Source: Candidatus Woesearchaeota archaeon (GTDB taxonomy: Archaea; Nanobdellota; Nanobdellia; Woesearchaeales; GW2011-AR9). Taken from it: DNA of 38,704 nt. A model generated the notes under the pieces. It did not search any database. It was given only the letters and a program-made list of their open reading frames with translations, and was not told the DNA's origin. The position numbers and the translations under genes are program-made. Where the stretch lies: the NCBI GenBank assembly GCA_013331635.1, contig DUFZ01000034.1, forward strand, positions 52,055 through 90,758, written 5' to 3'. This document shows, one piece after another, positions 11,819 to 24,774 of this stretch. The number at the start of each line of letters is the position of its first letter. The stretch's first letter is position 1.

Positions 11819-12184
11819 TGGTAGAGTGGCATAAGCCGCCTTTGGTGAGGCCCAAAACAAAAGTACAAGACTCCTGTCGATGGCCATTGGAAGCATTCTA
11901 CTGAGCGTTCATACGAACTTGCACCAGCCATGTCTCATGATTTAGACACCCAAAGTGTGACTTTGGAAGGTTTCGCCGTTTCATCGTTCCCTGCAAGGAC
12001 GTCAACAGATTAACTCCTCTCTTTCACAAGAGACTTCGCCATATCATCCCATCTTGCAGGACGTGTCGTTGCTGAAGCCAGAGCCAAGGGATTTCCCCTT
12101 CTTCCGTTAGGAAGTGGCGCTTTGAGGTGGGCGGACTTTCCTGGGTTCCCTTGCGGGTCCCTTTGCTTCCTGCCACTGCTACCA
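11819..12184 (-). ncRNA. rnpB: RNase P RNA
   Basis: This is the catalytic RNA of RNase P, which removes 5' leaders from pre-tRNAs. On the minus strand the 5' end TGGTAGCAGTGGCA (from 12184) pairs with the 3' end TGCCACTCTACCA (11831-11819), giving a 13-bp P1 stem with one bulged C. The conserved region AGGAAAGTCCGCCC (complement of 12129-12142) is universal region I, half of helix P4. The matching 3' conserved element GGCGGCTTATGCC is the complement of 11828-11840. Length of about 366 nt is normal. An AT-rich promoter sits at the correct distance upstream and a run of eight T follows the 3' end. Rpp29, a protein subunit, is encoded at 30666-30920. Confidence 0.93.
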
Positions 12185-21402: not shown

Positions 21403-22359
21403 ATGAGAAAGATAATTGGAAGTAGTTTAGAAAACTTTCCCCGGCTATGGGTTAAAAGTTATCCTTTTCCTAAGGAGGTTCTTGCGTTAGCAGATTTGGC
21501 TTCTCAGGATATCGGAATGGAAATATTCTTAGGGGGCAATTTTGAGGAAAACCAAGAATGTGTAAAGATATGTAGGGATAGTTATCCACGCTGGGGTGTA
21601 GAACTATTTTGTTATCAGGGTGAAGAAAAAAGGAAAGCGGAGGTAATATATGATCCTCTTTCCCCCGATCGGGCAGTGCGAGAGCTAAGTCGAAGTTATC
21701 TTTTTAATGCACTAGATTTAGCTTTAAAATATGGGGCATCTCATCTTCAGTTAGATGGGAATGATGGATATAGGACCAAATTAGAACCAATGGTTGATAG
21801 TAAAGATATTGTAGTAGCTATCAAAAGAAAAAAAGGGCTTCTTCTTGAAATTCGAGAACAATTTGGGGAATTTCCCATCTATTTTGAAAATACCATCCCC
21901 ATAGACCTACACGCACCTTCCTTAATGAGCCTTACCGGACATCGATTATCAGACTTTTGGAAGCAGGGGCTTCCATTAGAATACGACTTGGCACATCATG
22001 CTCTGGCACTTGATATTTACAGTAGAGCTCATGAACTTTGGTTTCCATTGACTGAGGAAGAAACTAGCCTGGGGCAGAGAGTAAAAGAAGTTGGGATAAC
22101 CGGGGTGATTCTAGAAGATCTCGCTTTGTTCCCAGAAATTTATTTTGCCCATCTCTCCAATGCGGCTAGATTTTCCGTAGGGACAAAATCAGATATTACC
22201 CCAGAAGATCCGACTCAATCTTTGATTGATTTAGTAAAAGTTATCCCCGTTTTAATCAGAAAAGCGAGGAATATTACCCCCGAAGTGGAGGATAAAGAGT
22301 ATATCCAAAGACCTAACTTAAGGCAGTGGATTAAAAAGCTGCAGGATTATAAAAAATAA
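21403..22359 (+). CDS. TIM-barrel protein, xylose isomerase/AP endonuclease-2-like
   Basis: A 318-residue protein whose alternating strands and helices fit the TIM barrel of the sugar phosphate isomerase/epimerase superfamily. Barrel-like steps include DIGMEIFLGGNF, ASHLQLDGNDGYR, FPIYFENTIP, LEYDLAHHALAL and ITGVILED. Acidic and histidine residues at strand ends (E in YFENT, D and H in LEYDLAHH) could bind a metal. The substrate cannot be named. GAGG lies about 13 nt before the ATG. It lies 45 bases after the ferredoxin and may share its transcript. Its codon use looks more AT-rich than that of its neighbours. Confidence 0.6.
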   Translation: MRKIIGSSLENFPRLWVKSYPFPKEVLALADLASQDIGMEIFLGGNFEENQECVKICRDSYPRWGVELFCYQGEEKRKAEVIYDPLSPDRAVRELSRSYLFNALDLALKYGASHLQLDGNDGYRTKLEPMVDSKDIVVAIKRKKGLLLEIREQFGEFPIYFENTIPIDLHAPSLMSLTGHRLSDFWKQGLPLEYDLAHHALALDIYSRAHELWFPLTEEETSLGQRVKEVGITGVILEDLALFPEIYFAHLSNAARFSVGTKSDITPEDPTQSLIDLVKVIPVLIRKARNITPEVEDKEYIQRPNLRQWIKKLQDYKK

Positions 22360-22369
22360 AAGAAGAGAT

Positions 22370-23038
22370 TCACCCTTTCTTCACAATAATCATACAATGA
22401 TCCATCTCATAGGGCTCAAGAATACGAAAATCGATAACCGTGAATTCTTTTTCGAGCATCTTTCTGGTTTCCTCAAATATCTGTTTTGATTTCTTTCTGG
22501 CATCGATGCTCCTGGCTTTGACTGCCAATAACCCGTATCCACCTTTCTTTAAAAATAATTTACAATTGTTGATGAAAATTTCGGCCTGATTGCGCTGGGC
22601 CACATCCTGATAAACTATGTCAGCCAGACAAATTTTATCAACATACTCTTCAGGATGATTGGCATCTGCCAGTATGGGAACAATATTTTTGCGATCTTGT
22701 GATAAAAATACTAAGTCACGCATCACCCGGGGAGCAGGATCAAGACCAAAGATGAGCCCCTCTTTTCCAACCATATCACTGACAAAAGAAGCAGTGTATC
22801 CATGGCTCACCCCCAGATACAATATAATATCATTTTTTCGTATCCCTGCGTTGGTGCAGCCCTTGGCAATTGCCGCTGCTAATTTGCTTCTAGTAGGATC
22901 AAATTCTCGAAATTCCAAGCCCCCGGTTCGAACTGTTCTCTCCTCAAAGGGCGCTTTTCCAGGCACCAGGCTTTGAGTGTACAGTTTTCTTCCATCGGTA
23001 TGGAGTTCAAAGATTTTATGTGGAGTTAGTTTGCTCAT
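22370..23038 (-). CDS. flpA: fibrillarin-like rRNA/tRNA 2'-O-methyltransferase
   Basis: The catalytic subunit of the archaeal C/D box RNP (222 residues), which uses S-adenosylmethionine to methylate ribose 2'-OH groups at sites chosen by guide RNAs. The class I methyltransferase core is visible: LYLGVSHGYTASFVSD (SAM loop), LIFGLDPAPRV (acidic ribose binder), VPILADANHPEEY, DIVYQDVAQ, and KARSIDARKK near the end. The ATG at 23038 forms an ATGA overlap with the Nudix gene stop codon and has AGGAGGG upstream at the right distance; the ATG at 23044 is too close to it. It is the last gene of the nop5-Nudix-flpA operon. Confidence 0.96.
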   Translation of the reverse strand: MSKLTPHKIFELHTDGRKLYTQSLVPGKAPFEERTVRTGGLEFREFDPTRSKLAAAIAKGCTNAGIRKNDIILYLGVSHGYTASFVSDMVGKEGLIFGLDPAPRVMRDLVFLSQDRKNIVPILADANHPEEYVDKICLADIVYQDVAQRNQAEIFINNCKLFLKKGGYGLLAVKARSIDARKKSKQIFEETRKMLEKEFTVIDFRILEPYEMDHCMIIVKKG

Positions 23039-23547
23039 AGGCATTCCCTCCTATATCGCTGCAAGATGCTCGCTCCATCAGGGCAAAATGATTTTTCTTT
23101 CATCATCTGATCAAGGCGCTCCAAAGATAGAAATTCTCCTGAAATAATTTCTTCTGCCTGGGTGGTAATAGGACTATCATAGGTACAACGATAGACCATT
23201 GTCCACACCCTATTTTCAGCTGTTTCATATTTGTTTTTGAAAAGAGGGACTAATTCAACTTTGGCGATACCCAGTTCTTCTTCTAGTTCTCGTTGCGCAT
23301 TGTCCAAATAGGTTTCTTCTCCGGTCACGCAGCCGCCTGCTACAATATCATAATATCCTAGCCATAAATCTTTGGAAAAAGTGCGCTGATGAACATACAA
23401 TTCCCAGTTAGAATTAAAAACCAGAATGGCAGTAGCCCGATGCCATAAATGCTCAGCTCGCATTTCTGATAATGATTGTAACTTTCTGAGTTCCTCAGGC
23501 GAGAACTCCATTGGTTGAGTTACCATAATTTTATGGTTGTTTTTCAT
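23035..23547 (-). CDS. Nudix hydrolase embedded in the nop5-flpA operon
   Basis: A 170-residue Nudix hydrolase. The Nudix box runs GGCVTGEETYLDNAQRELEE and continues EELGI, with the full G-x5-E-x7-R-E-x2-E-E-x-G pattern. Preceding strands (LWHRATAILVFNSN, ELYVHQRTFSKDLW, YYDIVAGG) resemble the isopentenyl-diphosphate isomerase/YfcD branch, whose members act on pyrophosphate-linked substrates. The substrate is unknown. It starts at an ATGA overlap with nop5 and ends at an ATGA overlap with flpA, so all three are translationally coupled. Usually nop5 and the fibrillarin gene are directly adjacent in archaea; the inserted gene is unusual. Confidence 0.88.
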   Translation of the reverse strand: MKNNHKIMVTQPMEFSPEELRKLQSLSEMRAEHLWHRATAILVFNSNWELYVHQRTFSKDLWLGYYDIVAGGCVTGEETYLDNAQRELEEELGIAKVELVPLFKNKYETAENRVWTMVYRCTYDSPITTQAEEIISGEFLSLERLDQMMKEKSFCPDGASILQRYRRECL

Positions 23548-24485
23548 CTGTTTATTTTCTCTTCCAATTCTTTTTTATATTCTTTCGCTTTAAATTCACC
23601 CTTAAAGTAATCGAGCCTCGCGCATAGCGATAATTTATCCGCCAGCATTCGCGCGGCTTTCCCGCGAAGCGCAGGCCTAGCGTTTTGAATGAAGGGATGC
23701 TGAAAGAGAATTCCATATTTTGGCGACTTTGCCCCGGTTTTGATATGCCTAAACAAGGCTTTTTCAGCACCGAGCAATTGGATGGTGGAAGCAGGAAGCA
23801 TGGCTAAGTGCTTAAGGCTCTTTCCCAGTTCCATTAATTTAGCGCCTAAAGTAACTCCCGCCAATTCCAACACATTAGGGCAGTGCCGGACCATGATTTT
23901 TTCTAAGTACACTTCATGTTGCTGGCGTACTTGGTATAATTTAGTAATTAAGAGCGCGAGTTCCTGCATTTCCTCCACATCATTTTTACTCAGCGGTGCG
24001 CCCATACTTTCAGTTGTCATCAGATGAAGTTCCTTCAACAGTTCTGGTTTGCTTTTCTCAGCAACGCTCCTCACAAATTGTTCATGGGAAGACCTCTCTT
24101 TTGATAATTCCGGCAAATACAAGCTGTACCATTCCCGCAATCGCTTGGTGAGCAGATTACTCACTTTATCTAATTCATTGATATTAGCGATAGTTTGGGT
24201 GATAAGATTATCGTCCGACACCGAATTTTTGATGCCTTGCTTGGTCAGTTCACAATTCTTAGTATAAAACTCCTGAAAGTAGGTGCGATCTTGAAAAGTT
24301 TGCATAACTGGCATCCATTTATCTTGAGGAAGCGGCTGGGCCTCCGGATGCTTCCGGCGCAATTTTTCTTCCGCTTGATTTTTGTGTTGATAGTCCTCCA
24401 ACTGAGTAAAGGGAATAAAATCTACCCGCTTGAGTTGCTCGTTAAAGATGAAACTTCCCATCAAATGAGTGAATAGGTATTTCAT
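23544..24485 (-). CDS. nop5: Nop5 (Nop56/58-like) C/D box RNP scaffold
   Basis: The scaffold of the C/D box RNP (313 residues). It joins fibrillarin to the L7Ae-guide RNA complex. The N-terminal fibrillarin-binding domain is about 1-95, a coiled coil covers about 100-200 (LREWYSLYLPELSKERSS, VRQQHEVYLEKIM) and the NOP domain ends with NVLELAGVTLGAKLMEL and LLGAEKALFRHI. The GAEKALFRHIKTG and PKYGILFQHP motifs are strongly conserved. The lysine/glutamate-rich C-terminal tail is short. The ATG at 24485 is preferred over a TTG at 24491 because the shared TATA box predicts a leaderless start here. Confidence 0.95.
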   Translation of the reverse strand: MKYLFTHLMGSFIFNEQLKRVDFIPFTQLEDYQHKNQAEEKLRRKHPEAQPLPQDKWMPVMQTFQDRTYFQEFYTKNCELTKQGIKNSVSDDNLITQTIANINELDKVSNLLTKRLREWYSLYLPELSKERSSHEQFVRSVAEKSKPELLKELHLMTTESMGAPLSKNDVEEMQELALLITKLYQVRQQHEVYLEKIMVRHCPNVLELAGVTLGAKLMELGKSLKHLAMLPASTIQLLGAEKALFRHIKTGAKSPKYGILFQHPFIQNARPALRGKAARMLADKLSLCARLDYFKGEFKAKEYKKELEEKINR

Positions 24486-24506: not shown

Positions 24507-24516
24507 CTATATAAAA
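24507..24516. promoter_or_regulatory. shared bidirectional TATA box for nop5 and the zinc-ribbon gene
   Basis: CTATATAAAA lies midway between the two divergent start codons. Its symmetric TATATA core is about 26 nt from the nop5 ATG (24485, minus strand) and about 26 nt from the zinc-ribbon ATG (24538, plus strand). One element can therefore serve both directions, giving leaderless transcripts on each side. Confidence 0.6.
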
Positions 24517-24537
24517 CTTTAGTTGGTTTTGGGAGGG

Positions 24538-24774
24538 ATGGATTATATAACCCAGCTCTTTGCGCAGAATCGCTGCGTGTATTGCAAGCTGGATTTAGAA
24601 AAAAGATTGTGGCGTTCTTGCTGGGATAATAAGCACCATTACAAAATTCTTCCTTGTTCCTGTGGGAAAAAGAATTGGCTTACCGTACACTTTCATGGCT
24701 CCGGGCATGATAAGGCATTAACCCAGAAAATAAGTCCCTTAGAATCAACCATACGGAAAGTGAGGGAAGCATAA
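24538..24774 (+). CDS. small zinc-ribbon-like protein
   Basis: A 78-residue protein with cysteines C13 and C16 (CVYC), C28, and C40 and C42 (CSC), which could form a zinc ribbon. A histidine-containing turn (HFHGSGHD) follows. Such small zinc proteins often bind nucleic acid or proteins, but no family is recognised. The ATG at 24538 fits the shared TATA box; GGGAGG directly before it is too close to be a normal Shine-Dalgarno. It diverges from the nop5 operon, which may reflect a link to rRNA modification. Confidence 0.65.
   Translation: MDYITQLFAQNRCVYCKLDLEKRLWRSCWDNKHHYKILPCSCGKKNWLTVHFHGSGHDKALTQKISPLESTIRKVREA

Follow-up and report, generated by a model that had tools for sequence, protein, structure and literature searches.

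A putative YfcD-like Nudix hydrolase gene between nop5 and fibrillarin in a woesearchaeal genome, at a junction repeatedly entered by nucleotide hydrolase genes

The window described here is a stretch of 38,704 nucleotides of contig DUFZ01000034.1 (contig C41) from a Candidatus Woesearchaeota archaeon. Its source genome (1.32 Mb, 95% complete) holds five Nudix domains according to Pfam, and its named relatives, among them the complete genome GW2011_AR15 (CP010425.1), belong to Candidatus Woesearchaeota. On the minus strand of the window, open reading frames and Pfam matches place nop5, a Nudix hydrolase gene and the fibrillarin gene consecutively and in that order, as the first-pass annotation had proposed. 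The canonical archaeal nop5-fibrillarin operon has the same two genes in the same order and on the same strand but normally adjacent, whereas here a third gene is inserted between them. The features of the locus are as follows.

24523..24774, plus strand: divergent small Cys-rich (zinc-ribbon-like) gene, from its open reading frame
24507..24517, minus strand: TATA-like GTTTTATATAG, its centre about 26 nt upstream of the nop5 start codon, from the sequence
23544..24485, minus strand: nop5 (aNOP56, C/D sRNP scaffold), 313 aa, ATG at 24485; Pfam Nop PF01798, 7.2e-55
23544..23547, minus strand: exact ATGA stop/start overlap of nop5 and the Nudix gene, from the sequence and junction geometry
23035..23547, minus strand: Nudix hydrolase, YfcD/IPP-isomerase-like branch, 170 aa, pI 5.2; PF00293, 2.4e-14
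23046..23051, minus strand: GGAGGG, Shine-Dalgarno-like, 7 nt 5' of the fibrillarin ATG at 23038, from the sequence
23035..23038, minus strand: ATGA stop/start overlap of the Nudix and fibrillarin genes, given the second fibrillarin ATG, from the sequence
22370..23044 or 23038, minus strand: fibrillarin-like rRNA/tRNA 2'-O-methyltransferase (flpA); PF01269, 1.7e-72; NF003276, 4.3e-72, over the cut-off

The nop5 product also matched NF011121 (2.2e-78), under the equivalog cut-off. ATGA overlaps had been read at both ends of the Nudix gene; the one with nop5 is exact, and the one with fibrillarin is exact if translation starts at the second ATG (23038). From the first ATG (23044), the overlap with the Nudix gene would be 10 nt and the GGAGGG would lie only 1 nt away; position 23038 is the better spaced start. 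The TATA-like GTTTTATATAG upstream of nop5 suggests that a single promoter probably gives rise to one near-leaderless transcript spanning all three genes. A small Cys-rich gene similar to the divergent one of the window occupies the same place beside nop5-Nudix-fibrillarin in genome G060 (L184, 3071-3373). On the other side, a 318-residue plus-strand open reading frame (21403-22359), without a match in Pfam or NCBIfam, converges on fibrillarin. Farther away, the minus strand carries an archaeal RNase P RNA (11820-12183; Rfam RF00373, 90.7 bits); Rfam returned nothing else over the window, and ARAGORN found no tRNA there.

The protein is a member of the Nudix superfamily (53.9 bits against Pfam NUDIX, gathering score 21.1), and its Nudix box (Gx5Ex7REUxEExGU) is intact at residues 72-94 (GCVTGEETYLDNAQRELEEELGI). 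The YfcD model NF011922 matched at 1.2e-27, but with 96.8 bits against a curated cut-off of 152, and since the equivalog cut-off is missed we call the protein YfcD-like rather than YfcD. Among structures, the best match was E. coli YfcD (PDB 2fkb; 4.6e-19, or 2.5e-37 with the family profile), and the relatives ranked as YfcD and D. radiodurans DR0079, followed by IPP isomerases. With E. coli YfcD the window protein shares the Nudix box, the overall length and the subfamily layout, although it does not have the usual subfamily start VVDENDxVI. Used as a query over the genome collection, it retrieved no close relative. From these features, the protein looks catalytically competent and is most likely a putative YfcD-like hydrolase of small nucleotides or nucleoside-diphosphate compounds.

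Two more specific functions had been suggested for it, namely action on RNA 5' ends and action on isoprenoid precursors, and neither fares well. Some Nudix and some CYTH-superfamily enzymes take off RNA 5' phosphates, and the gene shares an operon with the C/D RNP core; on these grounds, an RppH-like pyrophosphohydrolase acting on the 5' ends of C/D guide RNAs or pre-rRNA might be imagined. We consider this very unlikely, given that the NCBIfam RppH model scores 24 bits against a cut-off of 116, that RppH structures rank far below YfcD in the structure search, that the protein is acidic (pI 5.2), and that MazG, Ham1 and YfbR-type proteins, which occupy the same slot in other genomes, come from families acting on free nucleotides. 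The rank of IPP isomerases as the next-best structural relatives after YfcD and DR0079 speaks for an isoprenoid enzyme, either an IPP isomerase of type I or a diphosphate hydrolase akin to it, and type I IPP isomerases share with this subfamily the Nudix fold and, in the profile alignment, the N-terminal segment. The window protein nevertheless fails the curated models (TIGR02150, 27.9 bits against 105.8; another IPP-isomerase model, 28.6 against 127) and does not have the CSSHP/CCSHP stretch, where the profile of its family aligns GG and the window reads VAGGCV; an isoprenoid role is thus improbable in the extreme.

The arrangement was then placed in a survey of 172 distinct fibrillarin loci drawn from the GTDB family, order and class of the window and from a named collection, 157 of which count as pairs—that is, nop5 lies upstream of fibrillarin within 4.5 kb. 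The two genes are adjacent in 102 of the 157 pairs, in keeping with their reported normal adjacency, and separated by a gap of at least 200 nt in the other 55; gene calls in the gaps were automatic, and a few of the 55 hold no confident gene. A Nudix gene occupies the gap in six genomes from six GTDB families: the window genome (f1), G060 (f13; 48% identical to the window Nudix), G095 (f48), G108 (f61), G127 (f80; after a HAD gene) and G129 (f82; before an HD gene). Two further genomes have a Nudix gene directly behind fibrillarin (G112 and G202), and G032 has a broken copy there. Other gaps contain CYTH, MazG, MazG with CYTH, Ham1/ITPase, YfbR-like HD or HAD genes, as well as methyltransferases, AIM24, thymidylate-kinase-like and membrane proteins, nearly all of them co-directional with nop5. 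No report of this arrangement emerged from the literature searched on fibrillarin or Nop5 with Nudix or CYTH and on Woesearchaeota with fibrillarin.

Several individual loci deserve separate mention. In the window's family, a broken or remnant Nudix gene lies behind fibrillarin at L088 (7688-7939, oriented), and a weakly matching Nudix remnant lies antisense inside the gap at L091 (6372-6500). The gap of G028 (L084, 5768-7067) holds a nucleotidyltransferase gene followed by one for a small helical protein and resembles an MNT/HEPN-type toxin-antitoxin pair. A contig labelled Candidatus Nomurabacteria bacterium (L242, MFTJ01000057.1) carries a woesearchaeal nop5-fibrillarin pair and is probably mis-binned.

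The composition of the gaps is strongly unlike that of the neighbouring genes. By local profiles, and with kinship ignored, Nudix, CYTH, MazG and Ham1 genes account for 21 of the 58 automatically called gap genes, or 24 of 61 once three that the gene caller missed are added (MazG at L101, Ham1 at L119 and Nudix at L109), as compared to 6 of 1407 flank genes; three of these six flank matches lie directly behind fibrillarin (in G032, G112 and G202). Nudix alone supplies 6 of 59 genes in the gaps and 6 of 1407 in the flanks (p about 3e-6, kinship ignored), and from how many Nudix genes a genome carries one would expect about 0.09-0.5 such cases, as opposed to the six GTDB families observed. CYTH and MazG were absent from the 1407 flank genes of the surveyed loci by local profiles. 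Pfam agrees independently: among the 25 commonest families listed, the gap genes include 10 CYTH, 6 NUDIX, 6 MazG, 2 Ham1, 2 YfbR-like and 2 HAD, while the 284 nearest flank genes include at least 2 NUDIX and at least 2 HAD among the 25 commonest families listed, single occurrences possibly being hidden. This excess over the flanks marks the junction as a real hot spot. Genome-wide, and again ignoring kinship, the slot holds 9 of 50 CYTH matches and 6 of 26 MazG matches in 49 genomes of the family, and 6 of about 118 window-Nudix matches in 126 genomes of the order.

Phylogeny indicates that Nudix genes entered the slot several times independently. In a tree of 53 Nudix sequences, the gap members require five changes, at least four of which are forced by starred branches; the window and G060 proteins form one pair (94/83) and were counted as one change. 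The hosts of this pair are not neighbours in the nop5/fibrillarin tree, and their common Nudix gene may therefore be old or transferred. The gap CYTH genes of the window's family come near to forming one clade, apart from one more case that falls outside it (in a quick tree with weak forks), which suggests that CYTH is maintained in the slot for some reason. Gap content as a whole changes fast along the host tree. That fast turnover, together with the many other inserts (methyltransferases, AIM24, membrane proteins), would fit a neutral or mechanistic hot spot, a junction that simply tolerates small co-directional genes, of which Nudix, MazG and CYTH would be common, small and mobile examples. 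The marked difference between gap and flank genes, and the lack of any CYTH or MazG among the flank genes in the local-profile search, make this a rather doubtful explanation.

The wider distribution of the Nudix subfamily bears directly on its proposed tie to the C/D RNP core. The closest relatives of the window Nudix outside the gap lie between carA and carB in five genomes (G143, G114, G100, G120 and G090); the copy in G143 is 51% identical to the window protein and is followed by another insert. Others lie beside pyrD (G085), behind gatA (G094), beside srp54 (G149 and G154) and behind rps27ae (G091), and the remainder have unrelated neighbours. Most subfamily members are thus found elsewhere, largely the outcome that the first-pass annotation had named as evidence against its proposal, and they do not mark the gene as a component of the C/D sRNP core operon by association in most relatives. 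What stands of the proposed tie is the ATGA coupling and the recurrent link to the slot in six families among the 157 pairs, the survey of nop5-flpA loci having confirmed repeated insertion within Woesearchaeota; a specific role in the C/D RNP finds no such backing.

Among carA loci with enough downstream sequence, a Nudix gene directly follows carA in 5 of 28 and a MazG gene in 2 of 28, and G057 has carA followed by TauE and then Nudix. At L185, L186, L187, L188, L204, L317 and L334, the gene that follows carA is a Nudix or MazG gene, in most cases enclosed by carA and carB and often joined by an ATGA overlap. MazG is inserted between gatA and gatB in 2 of 30 gatB loci. The nop5-fibrillarin slot is therefore hot but not unique; its uniqueness is ruled out by the same gene types at carA-carB and gatA-gatB. 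At pheS-pheT, likewise a conserved pair, inserts were found in about 7 of 29 loci, none of them Nudix, CYTH, MazG or Ham1 (p about 0.05 for these families relative to nop5-fibrillarin), so that not every essential junction shares the habit; about 30 loci with 1.5 kb of flank were covered for pheS and as many for gatB. The pheS-pheT inserts (L343-L372) are of recurring kinds, by eye translin-like, LOG-like Rossmann and LUD-like, and are unlike those between nop5 and fibrillarin. A large recurring protein of repeated units of about 50 residues (with a start like MxxNPLVTGQPxxGFINxNSLVLxTFKP), possibly a mobile element, was seen after carA or the inserted gene (at or soon after carA in L315, L316, L317 and L329) and in L196.

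As the main alternative, the gap hydrolases might destroy modified NTPs, such as 2'-O-methyl NTPs, which would arise once nucleotides freed by the breakdown of modified RNA are phosphorylated again; co-production with a 2'-O-methyltransferase would then pay. That one slot houses hydrolases of six or more unrelated superfamilies, that Nudix, CYTH, MazG and Ham1 supply 24 of the 61 gap genes and 6 of the 1407 in the flanks, and that CYTH is retained within the window's family all fit this idea, and there is a precedent in the Maf pyrophosphatases, whose substrates, and in part preferred substrates, are m5UTP, m5CTP, pseudo-UTP and m7GTP, modified NTPs of RNA type (PMC3899018). It is also consistent with salvage dependence: no carA match was found in the window genome or in 89 of the 126 genomes of the order, which makes reliance on salvaged nucleotides likely. 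The idea is weakened by the occurrence of the same Nudix subfamily and of MazG at carA-carB and gatA-gatB, by the majority of nop5-fibrillarin pairs that have no hydrolase, and by the Nudix and Ham1 genes that mostly lie elsewhere in the genome; we regard it as possible, though not probable. A broader version, in which the junction is a selected slot to which unrelated hydrolases are recruited to clear modified nucleotides (2'-O-methyl or other) from RNA turnover and salvage, is offered only tentatively and seems unlikely.

The account that we favour, with a confidence somewhat above even, is that the window gene encodes a YfcD-like housekeeping nucleotide or diphosphate hydrolase riding in an essential operon, and not a C/D RNP subunit. 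The enzyme would be a "house-cleaning" diphosphatase, probably acting on small nucleotides or nucleoside-diphosphate compounds, whose gene entered, between nop5 and fibrillarin, an operon probably run from a single promoter and would be co-transcribed with it; ATGA-coupled translation could then give steady Nudix expression alongside ribosome biogenesis, to the presumed benefit of the cell. More generally, it may be a woesearchaeal habit that small nucleotide-(pyro)phosphohydrolases (Nudix, MazG, CYTH, Ham1/ITPase, HD and HAD) repeatedly enter essential-gene junctions, the favoured ones perhaps being those at which both neighbours encode parts of the same complex: nop5-fibrillarin and, for Nudix and MazG, also carA-carB and gatA-gatB. 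The gene order, the overlaps, the intact Nudix box, the several entries, the enrichment and the like genes at other junctions are direct observations, and because the same kinds of gene occur in other essential operons, a housekeeping passenger is likelier than a part of the RNA-methylation machinery. Against the passenger reading count the facts that two of the three hot junctions (nop5-fibrillarin and carA-carB) concern RNA or nucleotides, that CYTH is retained in the slot of the window's family, and that no such insert was found at pheS-pheT in about 29 loci. Most of the gap hydrolases fall into the classes of house-cleaning NTP pyrophosphatases (Nudix, MazG, ITPase and Maf), for which the literature searched gave no link to the nop5-fibrillarin or carA-carB junction.

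In uncultured archaea, reasoning from gene neighbours is a main route to guesses at function, and here one junction has been refilled repeatedly by unrelated nucleotide hydrolases. If the hydrolases are passengers, the case shows how misleading an operon neighbourhood can become once essential operons carry housekeeping genes. If the functional link is true, it would be an unrecognised tie of RNA modification to nucleotide sanitation in salvage-dependent archaea, and were the junction a slot for sanitation enzymes, RNA methylation would be coupled to the clean-up of its by-products.
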